64,000 bases of DNA. Origin: Isoetes taiwanensis (taxonomy: Eukaryota; Streptophyta; Lycopodiopsida; Isoetales; Isoetaceae). The translations under genes were made by a program, and so were the position numbers. How positions within the stretch are numbered: position 1 is the stretch's first letter; each line of letters begins with the position of its first letter. Under the pieces are notes generated by a model. That model did no database searches. It had not been told where the DNA came from and saw nothing but the letters and a program-made list of their open reading frames with translations. The DNA lies in contig JAJEKV010000023.1 of assembly GCA_021234155.1 (NCBI GenBank), positions 5,787,945 through 5,851,944 on the forward strand. The letters are read 5' to 3'. This document shows, one piece after another, positions 5,048 to 47,600 of this stretch.

Positions 5048-5059
5048 TAACTAAAAAAA

Positions 5060-18302: not shown

Positions 18303-18637
18303 AGATGGGTAAAAGAAAGCTAGGGTGTCTAAAAAAACTGCCCTTACATTATGTATAATGTAGGGCATGTAGGCACCCGTTTTTGTTATTTTTTTGAATT
18401 TTAGTTAGTTGGGATATGTAATGATTAGGAGTAGCCACGTCAGCAATTCAAAATTATGAGTGGCAGTGGCAACCAGAACGGACCTTCATTGCAATTTTTC
18501 GGAGGGAGATTGCGAAGTGTTTCCTGTTTAGGAAAACAATTTGCCGCCGTTCCAATTTTTTGTGTTTGTGAGTGATCAACGAAGTAATTCGACTGTAACT
18601 ATTCTTCTTCCTCGAAATCCTTGCCCAAATCCAAGCA

Positions 18638-19370
18638 ATGGACGCCTTTGCCTCCCGGAAGTCACCCAGATTAAACAAAAATTTGAAAATAGCCGATTCT
18701 AGCAAGAAAGCCGAAAAAAACAAGAGGAAGGTTCAAACTTCTGAGGAACCAGGGCCAAAAAGAAGACTTATTTGTGAAGAACCCGCTGTTGTGGAAGCAA
18801 AGCATGTAAGATGTGTCAATGCAGATGAAATTTTTCCAGATTTACAACAGATAATGGACGAGCAGTGGGGGCCCAAAGACATACGGGGGTTCAAAGAATC
18901 TAGCGTGAAGCCAGAGTGGGCCGAGAACTTCTACAAACATTATGAAATTGTTTTTGGTAAGCGGGAGGTCACAAATCGCCATGTACCTGAGTACTTTGCT
19001 CGTGCATTTGCCCTTCAATTTGACAGGTAAAAAGTAGATTGGGATACTTTTTAAAGTTTTGGCCAAAGATTTGGCAAAGGGAGGAGCAAAAGAATCTGCT
19101 ATTACAGAAGAAATTGGGACCTCTAAATCCACATCCAAGGTTCCTAAATTTCAGCAAGGATTTTACCCTAAGGAAGAGCTTGAATTTGCAGAAACTCTGT
19201 TGCAGCAGTGTCATGGAGAGTTAATTAGCAGCACATCCAAGGTTGAAGAACTGAAAATTCAGCGCACAGAATTACGTGACAATATAAATAAGATTTCAGG
19301 AAGAAAGGATGCACATGAAGAGGACCTAGCACAGATACAAGAAGACATCAATAGTGTTCTCGGCGACTAA
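18638..19370 (+). pseudogene. Element A protein: basic N-terminus and coiled coil
   Basis: ATG at 18638 opens MDAFASRKSPRLNKNLKIAD, a basic nuclear-type N-terminus. It then continues WAENFYKHYEIVFGKREVTN to a possible donor at 19026 (GACAG|GTAAAA). In copy B the frame runs on without an intron (KKVDWDTFKVLAKDLAKG). The second part (FYPKEELEFAETLLQQCHGE, VEELKIQRTELRDNINKISG) is a clear heptad-type coiled coil. A phase break occurs near 19365, after which the charged coil seems to continue to about 19600 with stops. Function is not known. It is the 5'-most part of the plus-strand gene set, next to the left terminus. Confidence 0.6.
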
Positions 19371-19619
19371 AAGCGAAGAAGAGAGACATCAAGGCGTGCG
19401 GCATGAGCTTGACCTTTTGATGAGGGATAGAACCGGGAAGGAAGAAATTTGAAGAGAATTCGGGGAGCCATTGGAGAAAGCCATTCCGGAGAAGGAGTTA
19501 TGTGAAAAGAGGATTGCGTAACTTGAGGAGGCTCACAAAGTTCGGGTTTGAGTCGCAGACGGCTTGATGATATGCATAAGTACATGATGCATTCTGCGGC
19601 GATTCTCCTTCAGCCCAAA

Positions 19620-19830
19620 ACAAGCTTAGTGATCTCTCCAAACTGAAGAAAAATTCATATCGTGCATGGATGTGTGTTTTGCAAGTAATGGCTTTGCTAA
19701 TAATGAACCTATCCTAGTTGCTCCATGCGAGCATTCATTTCATATCTTTCATTTCTCATATTCTATTTCTATTTGGACTATCATGCCCAAGAGCATGCAA
19801 ATGGGACGATAACATTTCAAAGACCTTGGG
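19620..19830 (+). pseudogene. Element A RING-like zinc finger
   Basis: The segment VCFASNGFANNEPILVAPC followed by EHSFHI corresponds to the better-preserved copy B, where CVFCSNGF...PCEHSFH...LSCPRACKWD gives a Cys-x2-Cys, Cys-x-His-x2-His, Cys-x3-Cys layout. That is RING/U-box-like, the last pair being irregular. In copy A the first pair and the final Cys pair are disturbed by small indels. If functional, such fingers act as E3 ubiquitin or SUMO ligase modules, which would be notable next to a Ulp1-type protease. Confidence 0.5.
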
Positions 19831-20429
19831 GTGTACAATCGAGGTAAGCAAAGGTATTTCATGATTTATGTTCAATTTCTTCGCACCCGTGATTACCGCA
19901 ATGTAGAATCCATTTACATGTAGATTGCTGCACTTAAGGTTTTGCTACAGCATGTAGGAGTGTACTGGTTATTTTATACTTATAGTTCCTTGGCTTGCAT
20001 GTCATACATATATGTGTTTCTTACATACATGTTGTACATTCACAGTGTGTAGGGTCCTAAATGTAGAACTTAAATACATAAAATTAGGAGTTGTGTACTG
20101 AGTTTTGTGGCAGAACATTTAGAGATATTTTATGTAATGTCTGATGTGTACATGTGCATACATTGGAGCACATTCATGTACATTACATGTACAATTCCAT
20201 CTAGATAAATAGCTGCTTACATGTATATGTACTCAAAGTACTTCAATGTAGATCAGTTCTAGTAATATGTACAGCTATTGATATGTACAGAACAGTTAGA
20301 GACTGATTAGTTTGAGACTGATATCTGACTGTTATTTGATTTATTTTCAGAGCTTCAAAGTGCCAAAAAAACTACTGAGCAGAAATTACACCACAGATCA
20401 GGTGCGATTGTTTTCAAATTCAATTTGCA

Positions 20430-21070
20430 TTGTGTCAGAGGAAGCAATTTCTTATTCTTGGTTCGGTTTTCACAGTTTTGGAGGTTCCAAAGAAAATTGA
20501 GGTGCAAGATGTAGCCGAGGGAAAGAAAGCAGTGATTGAAGGAAAAAGCAAAATCACTATTCCCGCGGTGGATGAGGTTGAGGAGGCTGGCACTTCAGGT
20601 CTGCATGGTGACATTCCAGATTATGACGAGGAACTCGAGAGATTGAGGGAGCAGGCTAAGGCCACATCTTCAAAAGTAAAGGCAGCAGCAGAAAATGTGA
20701 CTCCACAGAAGAACTCCACGCCTAAAAAGCCACAGAAGAAGACAATTAAAGCAGTAGAAACAGGTAAGAAAGCATTTTATTTGATTAAAGAATTTGAGAA
20801 ATCCATGACATCCTATGTTTCTGAGGTCCTAATGAAGAGGAATCTTCCGAGCATCAAGATGTAGAGCAGGATACTTTTAAGTTTGTGTCAAATATTGCTT
20901 CTGACATAGCAAAGGACGCTGAAGTTCATGACAATGAGAAATCAGGAGAGGTTGAAGACGAGGATTCTGGACCTAATAAGAATCTGAGTGAGGAAACCAA
21001 AAAAGCAGGGAAGGAAATTGATCTTGACTCAGAAAACAATGTCGCCAGAAAGCGTAAGAATGATCTCTAG
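20430..21070 (+). pseudogene. Element A charged Lys/Glu-rich linker protein
   Basis: After an acceptor near 20480 the frame reads VPKKIEVQDVAEGKKAVIEG, then GDIPDYDEELERLREQAKAT and a Lys/Pro stretch TPKKPQKKTIKAVETGKK. After an intron-like break it continues SDIAKDAEVHDNEKSGEVED to AEENNVARKRKN-like basic residues and a stop at 21069. It is low-complexity and highly charged, probably disordered, with basic clusters that could be nuclear localisation signals. It is preserved in copy B (37412-38083). I assign no function; it probably links the RING-like part to the Ulp1 domain in one long gene. Confidence 0.55.
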
Positions 21071-21189
21071 AGGTAACTTGATCTACATTTCTTACATTTT
21101 GTTTTACATCTAGTATCCAAGTTAAAAACTTTAAAATAATATGGATAGTAGTAGACGAATGTAGATGATTTGTGTAAATGTACTGGTCA

Positions 21190-22275
21190 TTGAACCCAGA
21201 CTGCAGTTCTGAATACAGGCCATACGATGCCTTGCTGAACCGAATGATGAAGCTCAAGAAGGCAAGGATTTTTCCAGGATCTTTGCCTGAAATGGAGTGT
21301 TATTTATTTGAACAAGATGTGCTGGACATGGATGTGGGAAAATTTTCCAACCGGCATGTGGATATGTATGCCAGGTACTGGACTTTGAACTTGTTCATTT
21401 GTATGTGTAAGTCAAGTTAGTAATTTTATCCTTTTCAACTTGTTATAGGTACCTGCTGACTCGTGTTCCGGATGATAAGAAGGTCGACGCCTGGTTCTTC
21501 CCACCGGACGACTTCATGGAATTTGCAAAGATGGGCCAAGGCAAGCGAAAAAGATAAATCTATGGCAGCCTCCGGCGTGGAAGAGATATTGTAAAGGTAG
21601 CTCTTACGGGGATAAATTGGCTGAAGTGCTTGAGATGGATCATGATTCCAATGCTATGTAGAGTTCTTGAACATCACACTTTGGCCATCTTCAACATGGC
21701 ACTTACTAAGAGTAAGAACACCATCAACATTCGGATCTTCAATTGCCGAGGACATTGACGTTGACATGCTTGCACTTAAGAGGTATTTTGTATTTCACAT
21801 CTCCTTTTATTAATATTGAGTAGATTGGATACCATGTTAGCGACTTCTTTCATTCATTTGCTACAAAATAGATCCGGTCTTTTGCGGGCTCCACATCCTC
21901 ACTATGGCACGCTTGGTTGTATCGAAAGTGTCCCACTTTTTGAAGCATGGACAAAATCCTTCACCGGTTGTGAAGATTCATAAGTGTCCACAGCAGAAAA
22001 GATGGGGATTCATGTGGCCTCTATGTTGCAGCTTATATGCGAGAAGTTTGTAGACACAATCGTGTGTGGTAAAACTACCAATGTGAGTGTCTCACTTCTT
22101 TTGTCTTGCAAACAAATGGTTTTAATACTTATTATGTAAGTATTGTTGTCACATTTGCAGATTACCCCAAACCTGGTTCTTGCCAAAGTATGCATCCGAT
22201 CGTCGTGATGTTCTCCCGGGCACTACTTCGGAGTTAGACCACATTCACATCGCTTTTAGAAACTATTAGACCACA
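21190..22275 (+). pseudogene. Element A Ulp1-type (C48) cysteine protease
   Basis: A lead segment (YRPYDALLNRMMKLKKARIF, MECYLFEQDVLDMDVGKFSN) is joined by an intron to YLLTRVPDDKKVDAWFFPPD. The catalytic region follows: LEHHTLAIFNMALTKS (His region, about 21665-21710) and KDGDSCGLYVAAYMREVCRH (about 22000-22055). The latter matches the Ulp1/SENP box with Cys in D-S-C-G and, in copy B, the preceding oxyanion Gln (PQRKDGDSCG). The acidic member of the triad is not evident because of small indels. Ulp1-like proteases process SUMO or other ubiquitin-like proteins and are carried by several plant transposon groups. Copy A is frameshifted and split by introns. Confidence 0.7.
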
Positions 22276-22438
22276 CGGTACTAATAAATGTGGCTGAAAA
22301 AACACCTATCCCTATTGTGAATGCTAAACACTATTTGATTATAAAATACACGTTTTTTCATTGAATTTTAATGAATAAAATCTCTTTTTATTCAACTCCA
22401 CCATACTTTATTGATAAATTGCATGTTCTTTCATATCA

Positions 22439-23128
22439 GGTGTACCGAAAAGGTTGATACTGTTTGATATCAATAATGTTTTGGCAAAACAAATACATAG
22501 GACTTTGGTATCGGATGATCACTAGTTGGAAATTATGACATAATAGGCAAGAAAGTGTTGTTTTTAAGGCCCCACCTAGACAAATTCCTGGAATTTGTAT
22601 TTGAACACTTTGAAGTAGGAATATGGTCATCAATAGCTCCATGGAACCTATCAAGAGTAGTGGATAAAATCTTCACAATGACGCAGATAAGGGACTTAAG
22701 GTTCACCTTTGATGGAAGCCTTTGTTTGAGAGCTGCCTTTCCGGATTAGCAAGTGAAGACAAACCTTTGTATCGGAAGCCAATTGAGTTTATATACGAGA
22801 AATATCCGGGCGGGGAATGACAAAGAACACACTAATAGTAGGCGACTCGAAAGTACAAGATGCTCTTCAATCCCAACGAAAATTGCATATGCCCACCTTC
22901 ATGGCAGGAAAGTGATGTTGAAGACACAGGTCTCTTGACACTTCTGAAACCATGGCTAGAGGGTTTGTTGATAGCACCAGACCTGCAACAGTATGTGAAG
23001 CAGAATCCTTTACGCAATCCATCCGATGTACTAACAACAGCTGTTTGGAGGCAAATGCTTTCAGAGGGCTACAAGGATAGAGATGGCATGTCCAGGCTAT
23101 GGACAAGCTGCAAGAAAGTAACATATTG
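22439..23128 (+). pseudogene. Element A FCP1/TIM50-like HAD phosphatase domain
   Basis: After a TTTCATATCAG acceptor the frame reads VPKRLILFDINNVLAKQ, a HAD motif I of the D-x-N type. It then has FLRPHLDKFLEFVFEHF and EVGIWSSIAPWNLSRVVDKI, the motif II region. A further frame reads KMLFNPNENCICPPSW and LLTLLKPWLEGLLIAPDLQQ ending YVKQNPLRNP, as in plant FCP1-homology proteins. Motif III, LI-DDS in copy B, reads LIVGDS here. A one-base loss near 22528 and a phase change near 22745 break it. Family members dephosphorylate RNA polymerase II CTD or similar; those with D-x-N may be inactive. It follows the Ulp1 region on the same strand and may be the C-terminus of the same gene. Confidence 0.75.
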
Positions 23129-23369
23129 AAACAGCAGAATAGTATGTACTGGCTTCACATCGGCTGTGACCAGATTTTGAATGTAAATTAATGTTAATAT
23201 AAAACATGAACAACAGACTTGTATATATTGGCATCATATCTGATATGACCAGGTTGTATATCTTGTGATATGTAATACAAGAGTTTTTGTCTCCATACAT
23301 GTTCCACTTTCTGCTTTGTTTCATGAATCAAAAGAAAAGCTATTGATATCCATTATAACAGAACAAGTT

Positions 23370-23741
23370 CACAGACTAGTTTAACTTCTTCATGCAACAA
23401 TTGATGAACATTTTGTACTTTCTGATATACATTGTGCTTGGAAACAGAAGATATTGTGTGATACTGAAATTTAAGTATCAAAATGCACTTCAGATTAAAA
23501 AATAAGTAAATAAGAAAAAACTTGCAGCAATCGACTAGTTTTCTCAACATAACACAGACTAGTTTAACTTCTTCATGCAACAATTGATAAACATTGTGTA
23601 CTTTCTGATATACATTTTGCTTGGTCACAGAAGATATTCTGTGATACTGAAATTGAAGTATCAAAATGCACTTCAGATTAAAAAATAAGTAAATAACAAA
23701 AAAACTTACAGCAATCGACTAGTTTTCTCAACATAACAGAA
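23370..23741. repeat. 183-bp tandem repeat at the convergent gene junction of A
   Basis: Two consecutive units (23370-23552 and 23553 to about 23741), each starting CACAGACTAGTTTAACTTC and ending TTTTCTCAACATAA, about 92% identical. They lie between the ends of the plus-strand HAD gene and the minus-strand transposase. Copy B has the same duplication at about 34755-35120, so it predates the separation of A and B. Confidence 0.8.
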
Positions 23742-23790
23742 GATGATGGCAAATATCAAAGTTCCTTTGTACGAACTTAGTCATGTGCAC

Positions 23791-26700
23791 TCAACAATCT
23801 CGGTGGAGGCTTGATATAAGCATGTCATGCACCTCTCGTGTGATCATATATGCTGTACGTGCCCCCTTCAACTTATGCTTGACCTGCTGCATCGTGAACT
23901 TTGCTCCAATTACAGATTCAGCTGGTACCAATACTATTTTGTCATCCAACAGCTTGTACTTGTGCTTTGTGCCTTGTAGCAGTTGATAGTAATGACCAGC
24001 TATAACCACGTCACCAGCAAGCATTCTATTTCCATAGTCGTCAATCACATCTTCACGAAGAATATGCATCTCCTTCCGCATAGGAGGGCGAAGTATGGAA
24101 CATTTTCATGATTCCCTGGAGCAGCAAAAGATGCAAATATGTCTCTAATTTGGAGTACATCGGATAGTTCTTGCTCATCAGCTGCATAAAAACCAAGTAG
24201 CTCTTCTTGTTCGTCGACACGGGCGAACTAGGCTCCGGTTGTGCACTTCCACGCACCACAATGCTTTCGAGATTCTCACATTCTCCCCATCTGAAATTCA
24301 AGCAACCATTGCAAAAACATGACGAGGGATCTATACATGACAAGTGTTGGGTAAATTTGGATTAATAGCAGACACACAATGTATAGCTAGAGTACCAGGC
24401 AATGTCTCACAATCTGAACGAGGGTCCCTGTTAATGTCTTCTGCCATCACCTCCCATATGACTCTGTCCATTTTGCACTTCTTTTGTCTCAAACAAAGTG
24501 CAAGCGAGTTGGCACCCAAAATCGGAACACCATTCTCTTTCCTTTGCTCAAATGCCGCTAGGAACCTTTTCTCTAAAGCAGCACGCCCATCATGTTCTCC
24601 TTTTCCATGGCTGAGCCAAAATAATTCCTTTGCATCCTAATTTTATACCTGTTATAATATTGGGCCACATTCAAATAAAAGGCTCGAGAACACTTAAAGC
24701 GAAAGGCCACGACCATCAGACCACATGACATGGTATTTGATGTGGCCAAAACCTTTTGCATCATCCAAATATGGTGCTTCTTGAGTGCGGCTGAACAAAG
24801 AAAGCATCATGCTTCATAACATCGGAAATATACAAATGAGCAGTTTTTCAGCTCGCCATTGACTTTCATCATGGTTATATGCACGGAATAGTTATACGGT
24901 CATTGTTCCAATGCTTTCGGACTGAACCTCCCGAATGGTGCGCAAAGTGTAGTTCTCGCAAAGTCCATTCCGACAAAAGCAGAATCATCCCTCAAATTTT
25001 GCTTGATTTCTGAATTGTTTGCTCACGCCAACTTGCTGAAAAGTTGTGAATAATGAACTTTGTAAGGTCTTTGAAACATCTTGTCAAGCAATGTACACGG
25101 AGTCCAGCTTTCATTAACAAGCTTCAACCTCCTTGAAGTGCCGGCTTTGGAAGGTTAGTTCACGTGCTTGTAAACTTGCCATTCAATGTTCTCATTCTGC
25201 GACTCTTTCTCCTTAGGACAGATTTGAATATTTTGATTGCCGCGGATTACGGCACTCTCCCTTGACCACTGTCCAAACTATGCCACTCTTCGCCTTCCTT
25301 CCTTGTCACAGACCGTAGCTCTCCACATAGCACCAACATTTTGAAATGTTTTAGAAGGAGCTTGGCAGACGCCATTGTTCTCATCTGCTGCACAAACACC
25401 ACAAGAACATGTACAATTGGCATGAAATTTGCTCCTCGGGGCTAAAAGCTTTTACGTATAGATCGGCTTATTCATGCTTCACGCTTGGCAAACATGTGTT
25501 CCTCTCTTTCAACCTTCTCACACACGCGTAGGCTTAAGCGATCGAACTTTCTCGATGCTAATCTTCACTTCAGGATGTTCATCTTTGAACATCTCATACA
25601 ATTCACTCTGCAAAAGGAAAAAGCGGCATGTATAAGTAAGATATAAATTAGAACTACTTACTAATTCAAAGATGTTGCGAGACATTGCATTAGTTCTATG
25701 GCACTTTCGGATCATGATTTCATATACATTCAACTACTATACCACAACATAGTACATATCATGTACATGATATGTATAAATGTATAAAGAATGTACTCCA
25801 AAGAGTTCCAGATGTACATAAAAAACTCAATATGTAACCAGGTCACAGACAGTGTCACTGTATTACAGATGTATGTATTTCATACTTTTCTTATGGAAGG
25901 GAGTACATTTAAATACTTTTATGTATCACCCTATCTTTAAAAACTATCTTGAGATCAGGAAAGCTTAAAATGTACTATAATGTACTTGGGAACTACAAAA
26001 ATCAAGACTATAATAACACAACTGACTTTCAACACATTTTTTTCGCCTTATGCCACATTGGATGTAATTGGAAGTACATCCAAGTACTTTTCCTGTTAAA
26101 AATAGCTCATTCAGTACCTCCAAGTGTAAAAATATAATTACTGTAGTTGGATGTACTTCAATGTATATCAGATACATCCATTACATGGAATGCAAATAGG
26201 ATTACTAAACTTATCCGGGATGCCTGAAGCTAGCTTCTATCAAGCTTGCAAAAAGAGGATTAAAAGACTTAAAACTGACACGGGGCATGTCCAAAACTGG
26301 ATTGGAAGTGTCCTTTTCTTCCGACATCCCGTACTTTGAGAAGTTTTTGTGTGGGTTAACCAAAACTCATTTACCAACTATTTGGTTGATTAGGAAGCAT
26401 GTCCGCCCCGGGTTGCCTTCTGCCCGATTGCCCACATATTAGCACCGATAATGACATCCGCTTTCTTCTAATTGCAGCTTTTGTGAGGTTTCTTGCTTGC
26501 ACTTGAAGAATTCTCGAGGCTACTCCTTTTTGCACGAGTTTTCCATTCTCACCAACAATCATTGATAACGGGGAATGCTTAGTCGCTAATTTATCATTGC
26601 TATTTGCTTGTTTCACTTCTGCGGACCTTCACGGATATTTTTTAGCATAGTATCCTTGAGAATTGCTTTATTTGGATTTCCAATGGCGGGTTCAAAAAGA

Positions 26701-26870
26701 AGTGCAGCCTTTCATCCCGAACGGTTTTTCTTTGCTAAAGCTCTCCTTTGCACGGGGACGTAAATCTTGAACCCGATCATATATAAATTTACAAATTTCA
26801 TCAATCTTACGCTTCATTTTCTTTGTCACATTCCCGATATTGCAATCTTCTTGCGCCATTTACGTTTCCT
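23791..26870 (-). pseudogene. Element A transposase (DDE-like, Cys-rich)
   Basis: Read downward from about 26870: a basic N-terminus and KRKIDEICKFIYDRVQDL-like start; VASRILQVQARNLTKAAIRR (26460-26520); SELYEMFKDEHPEVKISIEK (25555-25615), after an intron full of GTACAT words; a Cys-rich finger with NCTCSCGVCAADENNGVC (25370-25410); GMDFAR with EVQSE-like remains (24910-24985); WSDG (24720) and FRFKCSRAFYLNVAQYYNR; LSHGKGEHDGRAALEKRFLA (24570-24625); then AGHYYQLLQGTKHKYKLLDD to a stop at 23791. These blocks and their order match element C and a widespread eukaryotic transposase family. Several one-base indels break the frame, so this copy is not expected to make active enzyme. Confidence 0.75.
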
Positions 26871-27202
26871 TCGTTGTTCATCATGGTTCTTGCGTGGTTT
26901 AGGGTTAGTTGGAGGAATTTCGCAAGAAGGAGGGAAAACTCGAGTCGGGGGCGAAGTTTTAGCCAGAAAGTGGGAAATTCTCCTAACCTTCAGGCGTTTC
27001 TTGGAGTGGTTAGAGCGGCGGGAATTGAAATCTGCTTCATGATTGCGTTTTAATTGACGTGGCAAGTAGTTCCGAAAAAAAAGATTCCATAATATAGCTA
27101 TTATGTACATACTGAAAAAACGGTTATGTATTTGAAATGTGATACATCTCTTACTCTACATTTGGCCAAATGTAAGACACCCTAGCTTTCTTTTACCCAG
27201 AT

Positions 27203-28013
27203 GCCTGTGATTTTGCAATGCTTTGGAACGAAGGGTGCAACAATGGAGACATAAAAAGGTTAGTGTAAACCACCGTGCTTTCACCTGTCTTTACATGTTC
27301 TTATCTGTTGTTATGTACTGTTCACATGTTGATGGTTGGCTGCCCATAGGTTATTCTGGCATATTGGAAAGGAAGAAGTGGACAGGAGAGATAGGTTTGA
27401 TTGTGGGAGGGTTGAAGGGACCCAAGACATCCACAACATCAGGACTTACCTTGCAAAGTCCAGCACAAAGTTAGCTCAAAGAGGCTTCAGCTGCTTCTGT
27501 CGTCATTGTTTGAAAGGGCAGTGGGCTTCATGCACAAATAAAGACAGGCTCAAGCACTGAAAATATGTCATTCTGAAGCCAGCAAGTGCCAGTGATGATT
27601 TTGAGGACGAGGAGCTTGATGACGCGTGTTATGAAGGAGAGGGAGAGTGGCTTAGTGGGAACATTGGCGAGGGGGACAATTTTGTTGTTGTTGCAGAGGC
27701 AGGTAATGAGGAAAAGGTCGAGTTTTATTTGGTTTAATGCCTCAAACACAAGAATATTTTGGATCGGATCTGCCAAGCTAATTGGGGCTGCACATTCAAC
27801 ATTGGGGGGCATGTACTTGCAGGGTACTACTACAAGATACAATTGGATGGGAGCTATGAACTGCTGGCGAACCCCAGGAAGATCACCTATTAGTACAGTC
27901 ATTTGGTCATTGCAATCAAGTTTGATCTGGTTGAGATGGAAGGCAGGAATATGTGCAGCCTCCCTCCGGCCACTTATCAAATGATCCTGGACAGTCTGAC
28001 ATACGAGAGTTAA
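27203..28013 (+). pseudogene. Element C transposase, C-terminal part
   Basis: The frame interrupted at 18302 resumes here (CDFAMLWNEGCNNGDIKR up to a possible donor near 27257). After an intron it reads WHIGKEEVDRRDRFDCGRVE, then GTQDIHNIRTYL and GFSCFCRHC, a Gly-Thr...His...Cys-Phe-Cys-x2-Cys tail typical of the family. Next is an acidic exon (SDDFEDEELDDACYEGEGEW). The last exon has GCTFNIGGHVLAGYYYKIQL and KFDLVEMEGRNMCSLPPATY, ending at 28013. The last exon corresponds to AGHYYQLLQGTKHKYKLLDD of copy A. A premature stop near 27895 and others show that it is dead. Confidence 0.75.
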
Positions 28014-28503
28014 AACCTGGGTGTTAGTTTTTTATGTAGACAGTTCACAGGTAAAATAACTTTAAAATAGCTTATAAGTTTAAAGTTACACATTTAAAGT
28101 TGCATGAAGTTTTACAAATAGACTAGCAGGCTTGGCACTGCGTGAGCTTAAGGAGTACTTCCACAAGGAGCCCTTTGAGATAATAATCGGGTGGGAGCTA
28201 TGAACTGCTGGCAAACCCCTGGGATCACCTATCAGTACATTTATTTGGTCACTGCAATCAAGTTCGATCTGGTTGAGATGGAAGGCGCCAATATATTCAC
28301 CCTCCTTCAGGCCACTCATCAAATGATCCTGAACAGTCTGCCCTACAAGAGTTAAAACCTGGGTGTTGGTTTTTTATGTAGATAGTTCAAAACTAAAATA
28401 ACTCTAAAAAGTTACATAGCGTTGCACTTATAAATAGGCTAGCAGGCTTGGCACTGTGCGAGCTTAAGGAGTACTTCCACAGGAAGCCCTTTGAAATAAT
28501 CTT
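27848..28503. repeat. ~315-bp tandem duplication over the last transposase exon
   Basis: GGGAGCTATGAACTGCTGGC at about 27848 recurs at 28193, and CTAGCAGGCTTGGCACTG at 28124 recurs at 28439, so a unit of about 315 bp is repeated with partial copies at each side. The repeated part includes both the terminal transposase exon (plus) and the tail of the converging HAD gene (minus). Confidence 0.75.
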
Positions 28504-29109
28504 CCTCAATTAAGTTGTCTTGAAGGCATATGTTTAATGCAGCAACCGTATCCTTTTCAAGCCAAGCGTCTGAAAATTCTAGCCTGCTGATCACAGTCTC
28601 AACTGAATCCATGCGTGCAAGTAACTCCAATCTAGGTATCATATTTAAAATCACGAAGTTTTCATCCGGCTGGTCCTTGAAAGCCAGAACTGGGTGTGTC
28701 GTGTGAGGCGGATTTAGGAGCCCTTATACAAGCTATCATCAACCAAGAATACTCGCCCGGAATAATGAAATTTTTTTTGCAACATCACTCTCAGCTCCTT
28801 GAAAAATATTGATCTATCACTAATCCTCGGATGTCGGACCTGTCTACAATGTTCCTAGCCAATAATCTTCTTCAACCTCTTCGGGAAACACTGCTTGCAC
28901 ACGTTAAACAATGTCAAGGTACTCCAAATGCAGACGTCAAACTTCTGCAAGGCCCATTCAACGAACTCCATATAACTTGGCCTGCATATCAACTACTTGT
29001 TTGTTGTAACCTTAAGTTCGTGACTGTTGCTGGGTGGAGGCAATACCTGACCATGCACTCTCCTCTGCTGCATCTGCACCAAAACTCCATTGATGTCTAA
29101 AACCGTCAT
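28439..29109 (-). pseudogene. Element C FCP1-like HAD phosphatase
   Basis: From 29109 downward the frame reads KMTVLDINGVLVQM (HAD motif I, D-x-N), then a TAG, then PSYMEFVEWALQKFDVCIWS and TLTLFNVC (motif II region). Next come another TAG and FFKELRVMLQKKF, with RVFLVDDSLYKG (motif III, DD). After a one-base shift it continues LLNPPHTTHPVLAFKDQPD, LELLARMDSVETVISRLEF and a stop at 28439. The LNPPHT motif and the order are those of plant FCP1-homology proteins. Two nonsense codons and one frameshift inactivate it. It converges with the transposase exactly as in A and B. Confidence 0.8.
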
Positions 29110-29841
29110 CTTCCTGGGTGTAGTCCATCCAACTGCATCTGGCAGAGGAGATGTGTCCTCATTCTCAGGCCTGGAGCTATTTCTTCATCAAATTCGGATG
29201 AATTATCCCTATCTGCAGGGTGCTTATCTTCTGTTGTTATCGGCTGCTGACCCGTTGTTACGTGTTGGCTCTCATTTGGTACTTGCGAACTCAATAAGGG
29301 CAGCATCACAACCAATTCTACACCCTAGTTCCTGGGGGTCGTAGTGGCATATTCTTATGTGATGGCTTCAGGTGCTGGCTGTAGTTTGTCAACATCTACA
29401 CCTGTCTCGATTATACCACCCCTTGCACCTGTCTCAATCATATGAAATCTTGCACCTATCTCAATCATATCAAATCCTGCATTTGCCTCAATTGTATCGA
29501 CCTAATTGAGACCTGTATCCACCCGATTGCCGTCTTCTTCCGTGTCAAACTGGATTATATGGCGTGACCTCTTCAAAAACCTGATTACAATACAACTCGT
29601 AAGGTCGGTAGGGATTAGATTTGTAGGTGCCTCAAACCCTACATTGAAAATTGTATTGAATTTAATTGGAACAAAATAGAACTGAAGCGCAAAATAAAAC
29701 TGAAACTCCGTTCATAAATAAAAGAGAGGCACAACATCACACAAAAAGGTTTTTCATCCAGTTTCTATTTTGTCGGTTTTACAAGACCTGTAAAAACAAG
29801 GGAAGCATAAAATCAAGGACACTTTCTGTATTTATTGAAAA

Positions 29842-30500: not shown

Positions 30501-30838
30501 GGCGGAGCGGTTTATGAGACACTAGCTGACCTCTGAGGGTGCTCCGGGTTCTTTCTAGTCTTCTTTCAGCGAGATTTTTGGGATGACAAACTAAATCGAG
30601 CGCAAAATGCGAGCAAAGTTTGGATTGATGAGCGAAGCTTGGCACTGGAATAGAACAGAGTACAGAAAATGAAAAACATAGTAGGACAAGAATTCGAAAA
30701 TCCTAGGACCGACGTGGCCGCCCATCATTACTGCCTAGGACTGACGTGGCCTCCAATCATTAATGCTTGTACCAGTCCTTTTTTTCTTGACAGGCGGAAA
30801 TAGGGTGATGTGTGCTGGGGTGCCTTCTTTTGCATCCC

Positions 30839-31288
30839 ACTAGCGGGTTTTTACCCAAAAAGGGATCTATTTCCTAAGAGGACCAAGTGAATAGGAGGAT
30901 CCCTATTCCACAGAAGGATATGACTATCTACTGTATGCAAGAGGCCAAATTTCTAAGTCTAAAAAGAATGTAACTTTCTTGTTAAACGATGTATGTTCGT
31001 CAATATCTTTGTGCTCTAAAGGAACAACATTGGACACTTCTTATTCATAAATTTGGCAAGACTACTCTTGTGATACATTGTCTTGGGTTTTGTTTTTAGG
31101 ATTGTATGTGGGCCATTGAGTTTCAGTATATCCCTGGCATCATACCAAATCAAGAGCTAACATTTTTTTGACAAAAAAATGCTTTGACACTTTCTAAGGT
31201 CACTTTCAAAGATATGAACATTTAACTTCACCATCCATTAAATTCAAAAACTGTGTACAAGACCATGATATTAAAAGGAAGACGTCTG
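30839..31288. other. Spacer between C and B
   Basis: No gene is seen. 31030-31065 (TTCTTATTCATAAATTTGG and AGACTACTCTT) recurs near 40940-40970 beside the LINE tail, so this flank belongs to a dispersed repeat. Confidence 0.4.
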
Positions 31289-31589
31289 TACAGGGTAAAA
31301 GAAAGCTAGGGTGTCTTACATTTGGCCAAATGTAGAGTAAGAGATGTATCACATTTCAAATACATAATCGTTTTTTCAGTATGTACATAATAGCTATATT
31401 ATGGAATCTTTTTTTTCGGAACTACTTGCCACGTCAATTAAAACGCAATCATGAAGCAGATTTCAATTCCCGCCGCTCTAACCACTCCAAGAAACACCTG
31501 AACGTTAGGAGAATTTCCCACTTTCTGGCTAAAACTTCGCCCGACTCGAGATTTCCCTCCTTCTTGCGGAATTCCTCCAACTAACCCTA

Positions 31590-34500
31590 AACCACGCAAG
31601 AACCATGATGAACAACGAAGGAGCGAAATGGCGCAAAGAAGATTGCAATATCGGGGAATGTGACAAAGAAAATGAAGCGTAAGATTGATGAAATTTGTAA
31701 ATTTATATATGATCGGGTTCAAGATTTACGTCTGTGCAAAGAGAGAGCTTTAGCGATGAAAACTGTTCGGGATGAAAGGCTGCACTTCTTTTTGAACCGC
31801 CATTGGAAATCCAAATAAGCAAGCAATTCGAAGGATACTATGCTAAAAAATATCCGTGAAGGTGCGGGGAAGTGAAACAAGCAAATAGCAATGATAAATT
31901 AGCGACTAAACATTCCCCGTTATCAATGATTGTTGGTGAGAATGGAAAACTCGGGCAAAAAGGAGTAGCCTCGAGAATTCTTCAAGTGCAAGCAAGAAAC
32001 CTCACAAAAGCTGCAATTAGAAGAAAGCGGATGTCATTATCGGTGCTAATATGTGGCCTTTGGAAGGAAGGCAACCCAGGCGGGACATGCTTCCGGAATC
32101 AACCAAGCGGTTGGTAAATGAATTTTGGTTAACCCACACAAAAACTTCTCCAAAGTACGAGGGATGTCGGGAAGAAAAGGACACTTCAATCCAGTTTTTG
32201 AACATGCCCCGGTCAGTTTTAAGTCTTTTAATCCTCTTTTTGCAAGCTTGATAGAAGCTAGCTTCTGTGCATCCTGGATAAGTTTAGTAATCCTATTTGC
32301 ATTCCATGCAAGGGATGTTTAGGGTATACATTGAAGTACATCCAACTACTGATAATTATATTTTTACACTTGGAGGTACTTGAATGAGCTATGTTTAACG
32401 GGGAAAAGTACTTGGATGTACTTCCAATTACATCCCATGTGGCAAAGGCGAAAAATGTGTTGAAAGTCAGTTGTGTTATTATAGTCTTGATTTTTGTAGT
32501 TCCCAAGTACATTATAGTACATTTTAAGCTTTCGATCTCAAGATAGTTTTGAAAGATAGGGTGATACATAAAAGTATTTAAATGTACTTCCTTCCATAAG
32601 AAAAGTATTGAATACATACATCATGTCTGAAGGATGACTGCTCTGCGTGACTGGTTATATATTGAGTTTTTATGTACATCGGAACTCTTTGGGTACATTC
32701 TTTATACATTTATACATATCATGTACATGGTATGTACGATGTTGTGGTATAGTAGTTGAATGTATATCAAATCATGATCTGAATGCCATAGAACTAATGC
32801 AATGTGCGCAACATCTTTGAATTGTAAGTAGTTCTAATTTATATCTTACTTATACATGCTTTGCTTTTTCCTTGCAGAGTGAATTGTATGAGATGTTCAA
32901 AGATGAACATCCTGAAGTGAAGATTAGCATCGAAAGTTCGATTTTGCTTAAGCCTACGCGTGTGTGAGAAGGTTGAAAAGAGGAACACATCTTTGCTGCG
33001 TGAAGCATGAACAAGCTGATCTATACAGAAAAGCTTTTAGCGTCCTGAGGAGCAAATTTCATGCCAATTGTACATGTTCTTGTGGTGTTTGTGCAGCAGA
33101 TGAGAACAATGGCGTCTGCCAAGCTCCTTCTAAAACATTTCAAAATATTGGTGCTATGTGGAGAGCTACGATCTGTGACAAGGAAGGCGAAGAGTGGCAT
33201 AGTTTGAATTTGTGTCAAGGGAGAGTGCCGTAAGCTGTGGCATGAAAATATTCAAATATGTCCTAAGGAGAAAGAGTCGAGAATGAGAACATTGAATGGC
33301 AAGTTTACAAGAATGCATTGAGCGAACCTTCCAAAGGCGGCACTTCAAGGAGGTTGAAGCTTATTACCGAAGGCGGAGTCGGGTACATTGCTTGACAAGA
33401 TGTTTCAACACCTTACAAAATTCACTATTCACAACTTTTCAAGCAAGTTGGCGAGCAAACAATTCAGGAAATCGATTGCAAAATTTGAGGGATGATTACA
33501 TTTTTTGTCGATAATGGACTTTGCGAGAGAACTACACTTTGCGACTATTCGGGGAGGTTCAGTCAGAGCATTGGAACAATGACCGGATAACTATTACGGT
33601 GCATATAACCATGATGAAAGTCAATGGCGAGCTGAAAAAAACTGTTCATTTGTATGTTTTAGATGTTATGAAGCATGATGCTTTTTCTTTGTTCAGCTGC
33701 ACTCAAGAAGTACCATATTTGGATGATGCAAAAAGGTTTTGGCCACATCAAGTACCATGTCATGTGGTGCGATGGGTGTCTTTGCTTTCGGTTTAAGTGT
33801 TCTCGAGCCTTTTATTTGAATGTGGCCCAATATTATAACAGGTATAAAATTAGGATGCGATTGGGATTATTTTGGCTCGAGGCCATGGAAAAAAGGAGAA
33901 TATGATGGGCGGCTGCTTTGGAGAAAAGGTTCCTAGCGAGACGAGCAAAGGAAAGAGAATGGTGTTCGATTTTGGGTGCCAACTCTGCTTGCACTTTCTT
34001 TGAGACAAAAGAAGTGCAAAATGGACGAGTCATATGGGAGGTGATGGCGAAGACATTTAACGAGGGACCCTCGTTGATTGTGAGACATTGCACGGTACTC
34101 TAGCTATACATTTGTGTATGCGCTATTAATCCGGTGACCCAACACTTGTCATGTATAGATCCCCTGTCATGTTTTTGCAATGGTTGCTTGAATTTCAGAT
34201 GGGGAGAATGTGAGAATCTCGAGCATTGTGGTGCGTGGAAGCTGCACAAAACCTGGAGCCTAGTTCGCCCAGTCGGCGAACAAGAAGAGCTAGTTGGTTT
34301 TATGCGGTGATGAGCAAGAACTATCCGATGTACTCAAATTGGAGACATATTTGCATCTTTTGCTGCTCCAGGGAATCATGAAAATGTTCCATACTTCGTC
34401 CTCCTATCGTGAAGGAGATGCATATTCTTCGGGAAGATGTGATTGCGACTATGGAAATAGAATGCTTGCTGGTGACAGGGGGGTTAGCTGGTCATTACTA

Positions 34501-34720
34501 TCAAGCTGCGACAAGGCACAAACCACAAGTACAAGTTGTTGGATGACAAAATAGTATTGGTACCGGTGAATCGTAATTGGAGCAAAGTTCACGATCTGGC
34601 CAGGTCAAGCATAAGTTGAAGGGGGCACGCGTCTGACATATATGATCACGAGAGGTGCATGACATGCTTATATCAAGCCTACACGAGATTGTTGAGTGCA
34701 CATGACTAAGTTCTATACAA
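31590..34720 (+). pseudogene. Element B transposase
   Basis: Block order as in copy A: KRKIDEICKFIYDRVQDLRL (31672 onward), VASRILQVQARNLTKAAIRR, STKRLVNEFWLTHTKTSPKY (32100-32160), a long intron with GTACAT words, SELYEMFKDEHPEVKISIE (32878-32935), THLCCVKHEQADLYRKAF, NCTCSCGVCAADENNGVC with MWRATICDKEGEEWHSL, a degraded MDFA region near 33512, EVQSEHWNNDRITITVHITM (33556-33615), HVMWCDGC (33755), FKCSRAFYLNVAQYYNRYKI, and a damaged HGKGEHDG region (about 33880-33905). The C-terminal region is also degraded. The EVQSEHW block is better preserved here than in A, whereas A has the cleaner HGKGEHDG. Neither copy is intact. Confidence 0.75.
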
Positions 34721-34754
34721 AGGAACTTTCATATTTGCCATCATCTTTGTTATG

Positions 34755-35120
34755 TTGAGAAAACTAGTCGATTCTTTGTAAGTTTTTTTTGTTATTTACT
34801 TATTTTTTAATCGAAGTGCATTTTGATACTTCAATTTCATTATCCACGAATATCTTACGTGACCAAGCAAAATGTATATCAGAAAGTACAAAATGTTTAT
34901 CAATTGTTGCATGAAGAAGTTAAACTAGTACGTGTTATGTTGAGAAAACTAGTCGCGATTTTTTGCAAGTTTTTCTTATTTACTTATTTTTTAACTGAAG
35001 TGCATTTTGATACTTAAATTTCAGTATCACACAATATCTTCTGAATTCAAGCACAATGTATATCAGAAAGTACAAAATGTTCATCAATTGTTGCATGAAG
35101 AAGTTAAACTAGTCTGTGAA
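34755..35120. repeat. 183-bp tandem repeat at the convergent junction of B
   Basis: Inverse-orientation counterpart of 23370-23741: two units, each with AACTAGTC and TGTATATCAGAAAGTACAAA words, lying between the transposase end and the HAD end. Confidence 0.7.
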
Positions 35121-35307
35121 CTTGTTCTGTTATAATGGATATCAATAGCTTTTCTTTTGATTCATGAAACAAAGCAGAAAGTGGAACATGTATGGAGACA
35201 AAAACTCTTGTATTACATATCACAAGATATACAACCTGGTCATATTAGATATGATGCCAATATATACAAGTCTGTTGTTCATGTTTTATATTAACATTAA
35301 ATTACAT

Positions 35308-36048
35308 TCAAAATCTGGTCCTGGCCGATGTGAAGCCGGTACATACTATTATTATTTGTTTCAATATGTTACTTTCTTGCGGCTTGTCCATAGCTTTGGA
35401 CATGCCATCTGTCCTTGTAGCCCTCTGAAAGCATTTGCCTCCTCGGGCATTTGTTAGTACATCGGTTGGATTGCTTAAAGGATTACGCTTCACATACCAT
35501 TGCGGTGCGGTGCTATCAACAAACCCTCTAGTCATGGTTTTGAAGTGTCAAGAGACTGTGTCTTCAACATCACTTTCCGCCATGAAGGTGGGCATATGCA
35601 ATTTTCGTTGGGATTGAAGAGCATCTTGTACTTTCTGAGTCGTCTATAATTAGTGTGTTTCTTTGTCATTCACATGCGGATACTTCTCATATATAAACTC
35701 AATTGGCTTCGGATACAAAGGTTTGTCTTCACATCTTTTAATCGGGAAGGCGACTCCAAGCGATTTGGCTTCCATCAAAGGTGAACCTTAAGTCCCTTAT
35801 CTGCGTCATTGTGAAGATTTTATCCACTACTCTTGATAGGTTCCATGGAGCTATTGATGACCATATTCCTACTTCAAAGTGTTCAAATACAAATTCCAGG
35901 AATTCGTCTAGGTGGGGCCTTAAAAACAACACTTTCTTGCCTATTATGTCATAATTTCCAACTAGCTGATCATCTGATACCAAAGTCCTATGTATTTGTT
36001 TTGCCAAAACATTATTGATATCAAACGCTATCAACCTTTTATGTACAC
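35308..36048 (-). pseudogene. Element B FCP1-like HAD phosphatase domain
   Basis: After a CATATCAG acceptor at 36049-36051 the frame is open through motif I (RLIAFDINNVLAKQ), DDQLVGNYDIIGKKVLFLRP, HLDEFLEFVFEHFEVGIWSS and WNLSRVVDKIFTMTQIRDLR. It then reads DGSQIAWSRLPD and stops at 35738. Past a phase change, motif III (IIDDS, about 35640-35650) and NPNENCICPP follow, ending with YVKRNPLSNPTDVL near 35480. The N-terminal half is better preserved than in copy A, lacking the one-base loss. The motif I second Asp is Asn, as in the other two copies. Confidence 0.75.
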
Positions 36049-36190
36049 CTGATATGAAAGAACATGCAATTTATCAATAAAGTATGGTGGAGTTGAATAA
36101 AAAGAGATTTTATTCATTAAAATTCAATGAAAAAATGTGTATTTTATAATCAAATAGTGTTTAGCATTGACAATAGGGATAGGCTGTTTC

Positions 36191-37300
36191 TCAGCCACAT
36201 TTATTAGTACCAGGTGGTCTAATGGTTTCGGGTGCGATGTGAATGTAGTCTAACTCCTGAAGTAGTGCTCGGATGAGAACATCACGACGATCCTCCGCAT
36301 ACTTTGGCAAGAACCGGCCGGGTAATGTCGTAAATGTGACAACAATACTTACATAATAAGTATTAAAAACTATTTGTTTGCAAGACAAAAGAAGTGAGAC
36401 ACTCACATTGGTAGTTTTACCACACACACGATTGTGTCTACAAACCGCATATAATTTTGCAACATAGAGGCCACATGAATCCCCATCTTTTCTTTGTGGA
36501 CACTTATGAATCTTCACAACCTGGTGAAGGATTTTGTCCATGCTTCAAAAAGTGGGACACTCGACACAACCAATGCGTGCCATAGTGAGGATGTGGAGCA
36601 CGCAAAAAGACCGGATCTATTTTGTAGCAAATGAATGAAAAAAGCTGCTAACATGGTATCCAATCTACTCAATATTAATAAAAGGAGATGTGAAATACAA
36701 AATACCTCTTAAGTGCAAGCATGTCAACGTCAATGTCCTCGGCGAGAATTGAAGATCGAATGTTGATGGTGTTCTTACTCTTAGTAAGTGCCATGTTGAA
36801 GATGGCCAAAGTGTGATGTTGTTAACTCTACATAGCATTGGAATCATGATCCATCGCACTTCACCAATTTATCCCCTGTAAGAGCTACCTTTACAATATC
36901 TCTTCCATTTCGGAAGCTGCCATAGATTTATCTTTTTAACTTGCCTTGGTCCATCTTTTGCAAATTCCATGAAGCTATCCGGTGGGAAGAACGGGCGTCG
37001 GCCTTCTTATCATCACGGAACACAGAGGCTGCAGGTACCTATAACAAGTTGAAAAGGATAAAATTACTAACTTGACTTACACATACAAATGAACAAGTTC
37101 AAAGTCCGATTACACGGCATACATATCCACATGCCGGGTTGGAAAATTTCCCCACATCCATGTCCAAAGACATCTTGTTCAAATAAATAACACTCCATTT
37201 CGGGCAAAGATCACGGGAAAATCCTTGCCTTCTTGAGCTTCATCATTCGGTTCGTGAAGGCATCATTATGGCTGTATTTGAATGCGATGCGGGTTTAATG
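36191..37300 (-). pseudogene. Element B Ulp1-type cysteine protease
   Basis: KIHKCPQRKDGDSCGLYVAK (about 36510-36452) contains the catalytic Cys within D-S-C-G and an upstream Gln placed as the oxyanion-hole residue. The His region (HHTLAIFNMALTKSK) is readable near 36815-36770 in a shifted frame. Segments equivalent to the copy A lead (FPPDDFMEFAK region, 36960-37010, and the ARYW region) are present but broken by indels. After the Cys box the frame stays open to a stop at 36191. It is oriented with the HAD domain directly downstream. Confidence 0.65.
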
Positions 37301-37411
37301 ACCAGTACATTTACACAAATCATCTACATTCGTCTACTACTATCCATATTATTTTAAAGTTTTTAACTTGGAAACTAGATGTAAAAAAAAATGTAAGAAA
37401 TGTAGATCAAG

Positions 37412-38083
37412 TTACCTGTAGAGATCATTCTTCTGCTCTGCTGATACTGTTTTCTCGGAGTCAGTATCCATTTCCTTCCCATTTTTTTTGGTTTCCTCAC
37501 TCAGATTCTTATTAGGTCCAGAATCCTCGTCTTCAACCTCTCCTGATTTCTCATTGTCATGAAATTCAGCGTCCTTTACTATGTCAGAAGCAAGATTTGA
37601 CACAAACTTAAGAGTATCCTGCTCTACATCTTGATGCTCGGAAGATTCCTCTTCATTAGGACCTGTAAACATAGGATGTCATGGACTTCTCATTTCTTTG
37701 CCACCTTTGAAATAAAATGCTTTCTTACCTGTTTCTATTGCTTTAATTGTCTTCTTCTGTGGCTTTTTAGGCGTTGACTTCTTCTTTGGAGTCACATTTT
37801 CTGCTGCTGCCTTTACTTTTAAAGATGTGGCCTTAGCCTGCTCCCTCAATCTCTCGAGTTCCTCGTCATAATCTGGAATGTCACCATGCAGACCTGAAGT
37901 GCCAGCCTCCTCAACCTGTATCACCGCAGGAATAGTGATTTTGCTTTTTCCTTCAATCACTGCTTTCTTTCCCTCGGCTACATCTTGCACCTCAATTTTC
38001 TTTGGAACCTCCAAAACTGTGAAAACCGAACCAAGAATAAGAAATTGCTTCCTCTGACACAATGCAAAACAATTTGAAAACAA
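37412..38083 (-). pseudogene. Element B charged linker protein
   Basis: Counterpart of 20430-21070: VPKKIEVQDVAEGKKAVIEG, GDIPDYDEELERLREQAKAT and the TPKKPQKK basic stretch (38010-37720), then EESSEHQDVEQDTLKFVSNL to EKTVSAEQKNDL (37660-37415). The two parts are separated by an intron near 37665-37725 in both copies. Confidence 0.55.
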
Positions 38084-38616
38084 AGCTTTTTTGATCCGTG
38101 GTGTAATTTACGCTTTCGATTTTTTTTGGCACTTTGAAGCTCTCGAAAATAAATCACATAACGATCGGATATCGGTCTCAAACTAATGGGTCTCTAACTG
38201 TTCGTACATATCAATAGTTTGTACATATTACTAGAAGCCCGATCTACATTGAAGTACTTTGAGTACATACACATGTAAACACTATTTATCTAGATGGAAT
38301 ATACATGTAATGTACATGAATGTGCTCCAATGTATGCACATGTACACATCGGACATTACATAAAATACCTCTAAATGTTACGCCACAAAACTTCGATTAC
38401 ACAACTCCTAATTTTATGTATTTAAGTTCTACATCTAGGACCCTACTTTGTGAATGTACAACATGTATGTAAGAAACACATATATGTATGACATGCAAGC
38501 CATGGAACTATAAGTATAAAATAACCAGTACACTCCTACATGTTGTAGCAAAACCTTAAGTGCAGCAATCTACATGTAAATGGATTCTACATTGCGGTAA
38601 TCACGGGTGCGACAAA

Positions 38617-38889
38617 TTAAACATAAATCATGAAATCACGCTTACCTCCGGTGTACACACCCAAGATCTTTGAAATGTTTTCGTCCCATTTGCATGCTCT
38701 TGGGCAGGATAGTCCAGTGAGAAATAGAATATGAGAAATGAAGATATGAAATGAATGCTCGCATGGAGCAACTAGGATAGGTTCATTATTAGCAAAGCCA
38801 TTACTACAAAATACACATCCATATACGGATATGAATTTTTCTTCATTTGGAGAGATCACTAAGCTTGTTTTGGGCTGAAGGAGAATCAT
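38617..38889 (-). pseudogene. Element B RING-like zinc finger
   Basis: Open frame with CVFCSNGFANNEPILVAP, then CEHSFHI and LSCPRACKWDENISKILGV. The potential zinc ligands are two Cys pairs plus Cys-His-His in the middle, a RING-like layout with one irregular Cys spacing. A heavily charged coil precedes it in the gene (39300-39110). Confidence 0.6.
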
Positions 38890-39109
38890 TTGCAGAATGC
38901 ATCATGTACTTATGCATATCATCAAGCCGTGCAGAGCACTCAAACCGAACTTTGTGAGCCTCCTCAAGTTACGCAATCCTCTTTTCACATAACTCCTTCT
39001 CCCGAATGGCTTTCTCCAATGGCTCTGAATTCTCTTGACATTTCTTCCTTCCTGGTTCTATCCCTCATCAAAGGTCAACCTCTGCTTTGCGGTCTTGATG
39101 TCTCTCTTA

Positions 39110-39832
39110 TTCTTGGCGTGCGTCGAGAACACTATTGATGTCTTCTTGTATACGTGCTAGGTCCTCTTCATGTGCATCCTTTCTTCCTGAAATCTTATTT
39201 ATATTGTCACGTAATTACATGCGCTGAATTTTCAGTTCTTCAACCTTGGATGTGCTGCTAATTAACTCTCCATGACAACGCTTTGCCCCTTGAGTTTACG
39301 CAAATTCAAGCTCTTCCTTAGGGGAAATTTAGGAACCTTGGATGTGGATTTAGAGGTCCCAATTTCTTACGTAATAGCAGATTCTTTTTGCTCCTCCCTT
39401 TGCCAAATCTTTGGCCAAAACTTTAAAAGTATCCCAATCTACTTTTTTTGTCAATTGAAGGGCAAATGCACGAGCAAAGTACTCGATTACATGGCGATTT
39501 GTGACCTCCGCTTACCAAAAACAATTTCATAATGTTTGTAGAAGTTCTCGGCCCACTCGGCTTCCGCTAGATTCTTTGAACCCCGTATGTCTTTGGGCCC
39601 CTTTGCTTTCGTCCATTATACATTTGTAAATCTGGAAAAATTTCATCTGCATTGACACATCTTACATGCTTTGCTTCCACAACAATGGGTTCTTCACAAA
39701 TAAGTCTTCTTTTTGGTTACGGTTCCTCGAAGTTTGAACCTTCCTCTTGTTTTTTCGGCTTTCTTGCTAGAATCGACTATTTTCAAATTTTTGTTTAATC
39801 ACGGGTGACTTCGGGGAGGTAAAGGCGTCCAT
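39110..39832 (-). pseudogene. Element B basic N-terminus and coiled coil
   Basis: ATG at 39832 opens MDAFTSPKSPVIKQKFEN, matching the start of the copy A protein with indels. The downstream coil region (KVDWDTFKVLAKDLAK at about 39445-39400; VEELKIQR region near 39245) is in several frames. Confidence 0.5.
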
Positions 39833-40571
39833 TGCTTGGATTTGGGCAAGGATTTCGAGGAAGAAGAATAGTTCTGGTCGAATTACCGTTGATCACTCAC
39901 AAACACAAAAATTGGAATGGCGACAAATTTGTTTCCTAAGCGAGGAAACACCCGCAATCTCCCTCGAAAAATTGCAATGAAGGTCCGTTCTGGTTGCCAC
40001 TGCCACTCATAATTTTGAATTGCTGACGTGGCTACTCCTAATCATTACATATCCCAACTAACTAAAATTCAAAAAAATAACAAAAACGGGTGCCTACATG
40101 CCCTACATTATACATAATGTAAGGGCATTTTTTTTTAGACACCCTAGCTTTCTTTTACCCTACATCAGCATGGCCTCTTCAAATTTTCTCTACGGCATGT
40201 CGAAGGAGGAAAACAGCCCTGGCACCGCCCCTGTGCTGGATTCCAATGTCATTCACCCGTGTTCTATTTAATTCGCAACAGATTTCTAGTTTGATGCAGA
40301 AGTTTGATTCGTGCTAGCATATAGGCTCTCAAAAATTCTCATTGAATCTACGCACATCCATACCTGTACAATCGTTTCAAACCAGCCAGCCACACCACGG
40401 TACAGATTCGTTTCAAACCATCCACACCAGAGTATAGATGGCAGCCACCTCATGAACATCAAAAAAGCAAAGAACAGCCAAACCGAAATCAAATTCATTC
40501 AGGAGCTTCGCAGAAGACTCCACCACATAAACAGAAAAATTCAAGTACAACAAAACATGACATCCCAGTTC

Positions 40572-41740: not shown

Positions 41741-41800
41741 TCTTTCATATCTCTTTCATTTTGAGTGTAAAATGTGGACCAAGTTCTAAAATTCTCCTTC

Positions 41801-47528: not shown

Positions 47529-47600
47529 TTCTGAATATGAGGACACAAGGAATTAGGGTTTATAGCGCTGGCGACTCTTCATCTTTCTGCGCCACGTAGC

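Follow-up and report, generated by a model that had tools for sequence, protein, structure and literature searches.

Introduction

Ulp1-type protease genes are carried by some plant DNA transposons. In the available text of PMC2528002, KI-MULEs are MULEs without terminal inverted repeats (TIRs) that hold a Ulp1 gene in reverse orientation, while that of PMC13317346 links the Ulp1-bearing VANC genes of Vandal MULEs to methylation loss on kin elements. Sola elements, as portrayed in the accessible parts of PMC10741241 and PMC9033089, combine a 4-bp target-site duplication (TSD), TIRs and a DDD-type transposase in 2-9 kb, and are present in moss. We analysed a 64-kb stretch of the Isoetes taiwanensis genome (contig JAJEKV010000023.1; hereafter the window, at its full length) and found two full, mutually inverted copies of one DNA transposon family, family 1, in which a transposase lies opposite a cargo gene with RING-like, Ulp1 protease (C48) and FCP1-like HAD (NIF) parts. 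With a probability of roughly 0.7, we read this element as a high-copy cut-and-paste transposon with a spliced, trans-acting accessory protein that most likely counteracts host silencing.

Element architecture and copy number

Copy A (18307-27198, cargo on the + strand) and copy B (31293-40160, cargo on the - strand) were bounded by the same perfect 24-bp TIRs (GGGTAAAAGAAAGCTAGGGTGTCT). Direct reading placed 4-bp TSDs around both, AGAT at 18303-18306 and 27199-27202 for copy A and TACA at 31289-31292 and 40161-40164 for copy B. The leading 21 bp of this end sequence matched the window four times at up to three mismatches, always exactly, and had no match in 100 shuffles, which bears out the two copies with 24-bp ends and 4-bp duplications claimed in an earlier note on this DNA. 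Over an alignment of 8763 columns they shared 92.4% identity, interrupted by 71 + 81 small gaps. Transposase and cargo occupied opposite strands in each, as that note had also proposed and as frame readings of both copies and tblastn confirmed.

Family 1 was abundant in the whole assembly (1.66 Gb, 1110 contigs), where a 23-bp end pattern gave 282 + 254 matches at up to two mismatches and a reversed-pattern control gave none. Pairing took in 100 of these 536 matches and pairs less than 33 kb apart, leaving out wider spacings; it yielded 27 facing pairs, of which 15 spanned 8.5-9.5 kb. Eight further copies were chosen by the distance between their ends, close to 9.05 kb in L030-L035 and different in L036 and L037, and fetched; their TSD was exact in all except L032 (7/8). 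The RING-like region and the transposase were found in all ten family-1 copies examined, and Ulp1 and HAD in nine, a count that is not a rate because the copies were picked by end spacing. The exception, L036 (5.4 kb), is internally deleted: consensus positions 1883-5509 are gone, and with them Ulp1 and HAD, while the ends, RING region, transposase and TSD are retained. Copies with the same ends but no HAD or Ulp1, named in the earlier note as evidence against its reading, were thus represented by this one.

The transposase gene of copy A, in about two exons (~27098-26268 and ~25661-23788), covered 23788-27098 on the - strand by six-frame reading; that of copy B covered 31393-34690 on the + strand by six-frame reading and tblastn, all limits being approximate. 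Homologs included P0001 (E 1e-28) and P0002 (E 3e-26); P0026 (E 8e-7) was excluded from alignment A3 and the tree. The modelled structure of another homolog, P0007, has an RNase H-like DDE core (VIA-align), which supports the DDE-like assignment made earlier. Relatives were not found in scans of viral contigs with P0002 and alignment A3, and no MULE Pfam model matched the window transposase reading, P0001 or P0002 at E<=1.

Elsewhere in the window, a 383-aa open frame at 576-1724 (+) matched DUF7869 (PF25273, 75.3 bits). It was considered as the family-1 transposase and rejected, since none of P0001, P0002 and the window reading had a DUF7869 hit at E<=1; it may belong to a different transposase-like gene.

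Cargo gene and the Ulp1-HAD junction

Along the cargo strand of family 1 came an N-terminal and coiled-coil region, a RING-like finger, a charged basic linker, the Ulp1/C48 domain and the NIF/FCP1-type HAD domain. The first part of the copy A cargo, with its N-terminal region and coiled coil, ran from an ATG at 18638 to 19370 (+; open reading frames 18599-19030 and 19038-19370) and has a counterpart in families 2 and 3, described below. By tblastn, the RING-like finger lay at 19663-19833 (+) in copy A and 38811-38656 (-) in copy B. The Ulp1/C48 region, in exons, occupied 21208-22082 (+) and 37279-36407 (-), and the HAD region, a Pfam NIF match, 22442-23081 (+) and 36046-35393 (-), in copies A and B respectively.

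The NIF assignment was firm, scoring 31.8 bits on a raw window frame, 36.3 on a merged A+B reading and 62.0 on an eight-copy consensus with frames chosen by hand (PF03031 cut-off 21.8). The C48 assignment was firm only with frame reading or in relatives, the raw window frame giving 13.1 bits and the merged reading 21.7, below and above the PF02902 cut-off of 20.7. The solved chains nearest to the HAD were a CTD (C-terminal domain) small phosphatase-like protein (E 2.6e-5) and UBLCP1 (E 8.7e-5), and the family 2 Ulp1 reading best matched SENP7 (E 3e-4). With the Ulp1+HAD reading as query, no homolog reached E<=0.01 in a set of 3981 candidates.

The Ulp1 frame met a phase-1 G|GTA donor a few codons before its stop in copy B, the family 2 consensus and the family 3 locus F1034b. 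The HAD frame started past an AG acceptor that leaves two codon bases in these and in copy A, so that the predicted intron has the same phase in families 1-3. In families 1 and 2 no Met preceded the domain in the HAD frame, and a cargo of two separate genes was rejected there for that reason. From the matching donor and acceptor phases and the absence of this Met, we infer that Ulp1 and HAD are joined in a spliced fusion protein. The junction pattern was not found in F1053, another family 3 locus, and is known in that family from F1034b only.

Related families and spread of the cargo domains

Searching the genome for C48 and NIF brought up five further families, so that these domains were selected for in families 2-6. 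Family 2 elements measured 9.65 kb, with ends GGGTAAAAGCACGTTAGGGTGAT (146 + 142 end matches) and TSDs ATTA and CGGA; a strict script requiring ends plus TSD was positive in two of the six relatives tested, both from family 2. The four parts of family 1 recurred in unchanged order in families 2 and 3. All four parts were found in 5/9 family 2 loci and 2/3 family 3 loci, at least one part being missing from the partial loci E1043, F1066, F963, F1069 and F907. The order in family 4 (L026) was RING, HAD, Ulp1, with Ulp1 and HAD swapped. In families 5 (L040) and 6 (L039) the HAD stood in a single open frame adjoining the transposase, and L040 also held a RING-like stretch. Neither tblastn nor a Cys-box scan detected Ulp1 within the single 9.9-kb stretch fetched for each of these two families, beyond which one may lie. 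The stretches fetched for families 4, 5 and 6 yielded no element ends.

NIF scored above its cut-off in five of the six families, with 21.9 bits in family 3, 42.5 in family 4, 76.1 in family 5 and 73.0 in family 6, and below it in family 2 (16.9). On hand-joined readings C48 scored 45.4, 38.5 and 27.6 bits in families 2, 3 and 4. The HAD was thus present in 6/6 families and Ulp1 in 4/6, and among loci chosen through these very domains the HAD rather than Ulp1 seems to be the commoner and wider-spread cargo. A NIF search of the genome gave at least 151 matches (150 of 3261 candidates scored). About 100 of them, distributed across many contigs, scored 65-85 bits, and a large share of these may be additional HAD-bearing transposon copies; the three NIF loci fetched were two transposons and one BRCT-bearing NIF gene (L038).

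In the joined stretch L012/L013, a family 2 copy contained an insertion of ~320 bp (local ~10534-10856) with a terminal repeat of the same type, possibly a MITE of this transposon group.

Possible role of the accessory protein

In the mechanism we favour, the accessory gene would be spliced to give one protein acting in trans. Its RING and Ulp1 parts could edit the ubiquitin or SUMO marks of host proteins that act in silencing, transcription or repair, and its HAD could bind phosphorylated targets resembling the CTD of RNA polymerase II without dephosphorylating them. By analogy with the Ulp1-bearing VANC of Vandal MULEs, the net role would most likely be to counteract host silencing. Related high-copy families here combine Ulp1 with a CTD-phosphatase-like domain and a RING-like finger, which offers a lead on how one transposon could act on RNA polymerase and SUMO/ubiquitin together; the families with and apparently without Ulp1 form a natural experiment on the role of the cargo.

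Several observations weigh against this reading. Of the Ulp1, RING-like and FCP1-like cargo proposed in the earlier note, C48 and NIF rose above their cut-offs while the finger stayed under every Pfam cut-off, several RING models matching the same stretch (best 21.3 bits, against 27). The cargo and transposase readings were joined by hand across frame breaks, which the eight-copy consensus retains. Splicing is predicted from sequence, expression is presumed, and the function of the cargo is assigned by analogy. F1034b has an in-frame ATG ahead of the HAD, within the predicted intron, so the argument against two genes fails in family 3. The Ulp1 domain kept its Cys and His, and its Gln was preserved, but the catalytic Asp was replaced by Asn in families 1-3 (Asp is readable in family 4). 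The HAD was the least conserved of the six stretches compared between families 2 and 3 (40% amino-acid identity, pN 0.41, pS 0.76). Foldseek with the transposase model gave weak matches (best NurA, E 3e-4), leaving the fold claim to VIA-align. Finally, since L036 retains its ends, transposase and TSD, the cargo is not required in cis, unless its loss came after the insertion.

The strongest competitor, less likely than an anti-silencing role yet a serious possibility, is that the accessory protein is a direct cofactor of transposition, acting in end binding, transpososome remodelling or repair control. Many plant elements require a second protein, the cargo has basic and coiled-coil regions, and HAD and RING-like parts occur with Ulp1 in families 1-4 and without it in the family 5 stretch, all of which would suit a cofactor. 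Against it, no DNA-binding domain scored above Pfam cut-offs in the parts scanned, and the ends are still present in L036, where Ulp1 and HAD are missing.

A more specific version of the anti-silencing reading is tentative and somewhat less probable than the cofactor explanation. It would make these families an undescribed DDE lineage, defined by a conserved RING-HAD accessory, in which a constrained pseudo-phosphatase or substrate-trap HAD docks on the phosphorylated CTD of Pol II or of the related plant polymerases Pol IV/V. Ulp1 would have been added later in some families, so that one protein both reads the CTD and edits SUMO/ubiquitin and thereby evades RNA-directed silencing.

Frame breaks in the two copies

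Copies A and B differed at 897 columns, 720 of them in multi-base clusters enriched at CAG/CTG/CCG/CGG and CG. CAG or CTG was contained in 105 of the 178 clusters (random mean 42, maximum 49), and between the copies CAG/CTG/CCG/CGG survived at 43-50%, against 91-92% for CAT/ATG/CTA. A direct-repeat pair at 52-64 kb showed the same tendency (16/37 clusters, random mean 7.3), while a pair at 5-12 kb had three clusters, too few to judge. Because the differences concentrate at these sites, the frame breaks are probably in large part sequence error. The pattern suggests that bases at methylated CG and CHG sites were miscalled in long reads, rather than decay; in that case the elements themselves would be methylated and the host would be plant-like.

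Alternatively, the breaks could be genuine and both copies dead pseudogenes, as the lack of a full-length open frame in A and B would suggest. We hold this to be unlikely, though well short of negligible, in view of the cluster counts and trinucleotide survival given above and of multi-base swaps and indels that differ from deamination. Transposon genes that look decayed in an assembly can owe this look to methylation-linked sequence error, a point that calls for caution.

Active sites and constraint

HAD motif I read DIN, DLQ, DIQ, DFN, DLN and DVN in families 1-6 (across a frameshift in family 3), and none matched DxDx(T/V). The nucleophile Asp was kept, and the acid/base Asp was replaced by Asn (families 1, 4, 5, 6) or Gln (2, 3). 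Since this replacement occurred in all six families, the earlier suggestion that the cargo manipulates phosphorylation is doubtful. A working CTD-type phosphatase would be in keeping with NIF scores of 62-76 bits in families 1, 5 and 6, with motif IV DD in families 1, 4, 5 and 6, with a motif III Lys in some families and with CTD small phosphatases and UBLCP1 as closest solved chains. Besides the lost Asp, the DD of motif IV gives way to ID (family 2) or FE (family 3), and the BRCT-bearing NIF gene L038 of the same genome has an intact DLD (DLDHT), which makes such an activity improbable. A phosphoprotein reader or substrate trap fits the motifs better.

Between families 2 and 3, dN/dS was 0.16 (dS 1.43) for the Ulp1 exon and 0.23-0.26 for two transposase stretches, the three other stretches, including the HAD, being saturated; the Ulp1 exon thus looks constrained. 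Incidental capture of a host fragment (Pack-type transduplication) has a precedent in Ulp1 capture by plant MULEs and CACTAs, as far as the available text of PMC13317346 and PMC2528002 goes, and would suit the differing domain order of family 4 and the one family-1 copy without Ulp1 and HAD, but it is very improbable, already contradicted by the same cargo parts in six families, with the HAD in every one, an intron phase common to three and the apparent constraint on Ulp1.

Other features of the window

A decayed transposase related to family 6 lay just left of copy A at 16197-17794 (+; tblastn), with 64% identity to the L039 transposase over 114 columns. On the other side of copy A, a HAD remnant at 28592-29115 (-) agreed with the L039 HAD in 51% of 138 columns (E 1.4e-42). 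As copy A stands between these two parts of a third element, its insertion probably split a family 6 element. A ~340-bp tandem duplication (27841-28500) adjoins the HAD remnant.

Two direct-repeat pairs, 5056-7834/8977-11772 (98.5% identical) and 52057-53872/62122-63936 (93%), are possible long terminal repeat pairs; no clear 5-bp duplication was seen at the edges of either. A zf-RVT domain at 41094-41744 (-; 43 bits) is probably a non-LTR retrotransposon fragment, and a PHAX RNA-binding domain at 46785-47552 (-; 80.5 bits) probably belongs to a host gene. Two adjacent frames at 2483-3592 (-) matched a Malectin-like domain (119.3 and 84.4 bits), a type that occurs in plant receptor kinases.

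Comparison with known systems

MULEs make TSDs of about 9 bp, and CACTA/EnSpm elements have CACTA/G ends and 3-bp TSDs. The 4-bp TSD and the lack of a MULE Pfam match (E<=1) rule out a MULE of the KI-MULE type, and the GGGTAAAAG ends with a 4-bp TSD rule out CACTA/EnSpm. Ginger elements, with 40-270-bp TIRs, 5'-TG...CA-3' termini and 4-6-bp TSDs, agree with family 1 in TSD length alone, its TIRs being 24 bp long and beginning GGG.

The earlier statement that no described group carries both Ulp1 and FCP1-like cargo was supported: among the matches listed from open-access PMC literature (titles and abstract openings), no transposon had a CTD-phosphatase-like cargo or a RING-Ulp1-HAD architecture, and the parts recur here in diverged families. 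A new superfamily-level lineage is a possibility. Family 1 could be Sola-like, sharing the 4-bp TSD, TIRs, size and DDE type, a comparison made by element description; the available text of PMC10741241 and PMC9033089 does not mention a RING/Ulp1/HAD cargo for Sola.

The cargo domains likewise resemble known proteins while departing from them. The HAD shares motifs and closest solved chains with SCP/UBLCP1/CPL phosphatases (NIF, PF03031), but it lacks the acid/base Asp and is joined to Ulp1 by a predicted intron in families 1-3. The Ulp1 domain preserves the Cys box, His region and Gln of SENP7/Ulp2-type SUMO proteases (C48), with Asn for Asp in families 1-3. With CACTA-ULP, family 1 shares a Ulp1 domain within a plant DNA transposon, whereas its ends and TSD differ and a HAD is unreported for CACTA-ULP in the accessible parts of PMC2528002. 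Like KI-MULE/KIU elements, as the available text of PMC2528002 and PMC13317346 describes them, it is a plant DNA transposon with a reverse-oriented Ulp1 accessory gene; it differs from them in its 24-bp TIRs and 4-bp TSD, in a transposase that no MULE Pfam model matched, and in the RING-like finger and HAD that accompany Ulp1.

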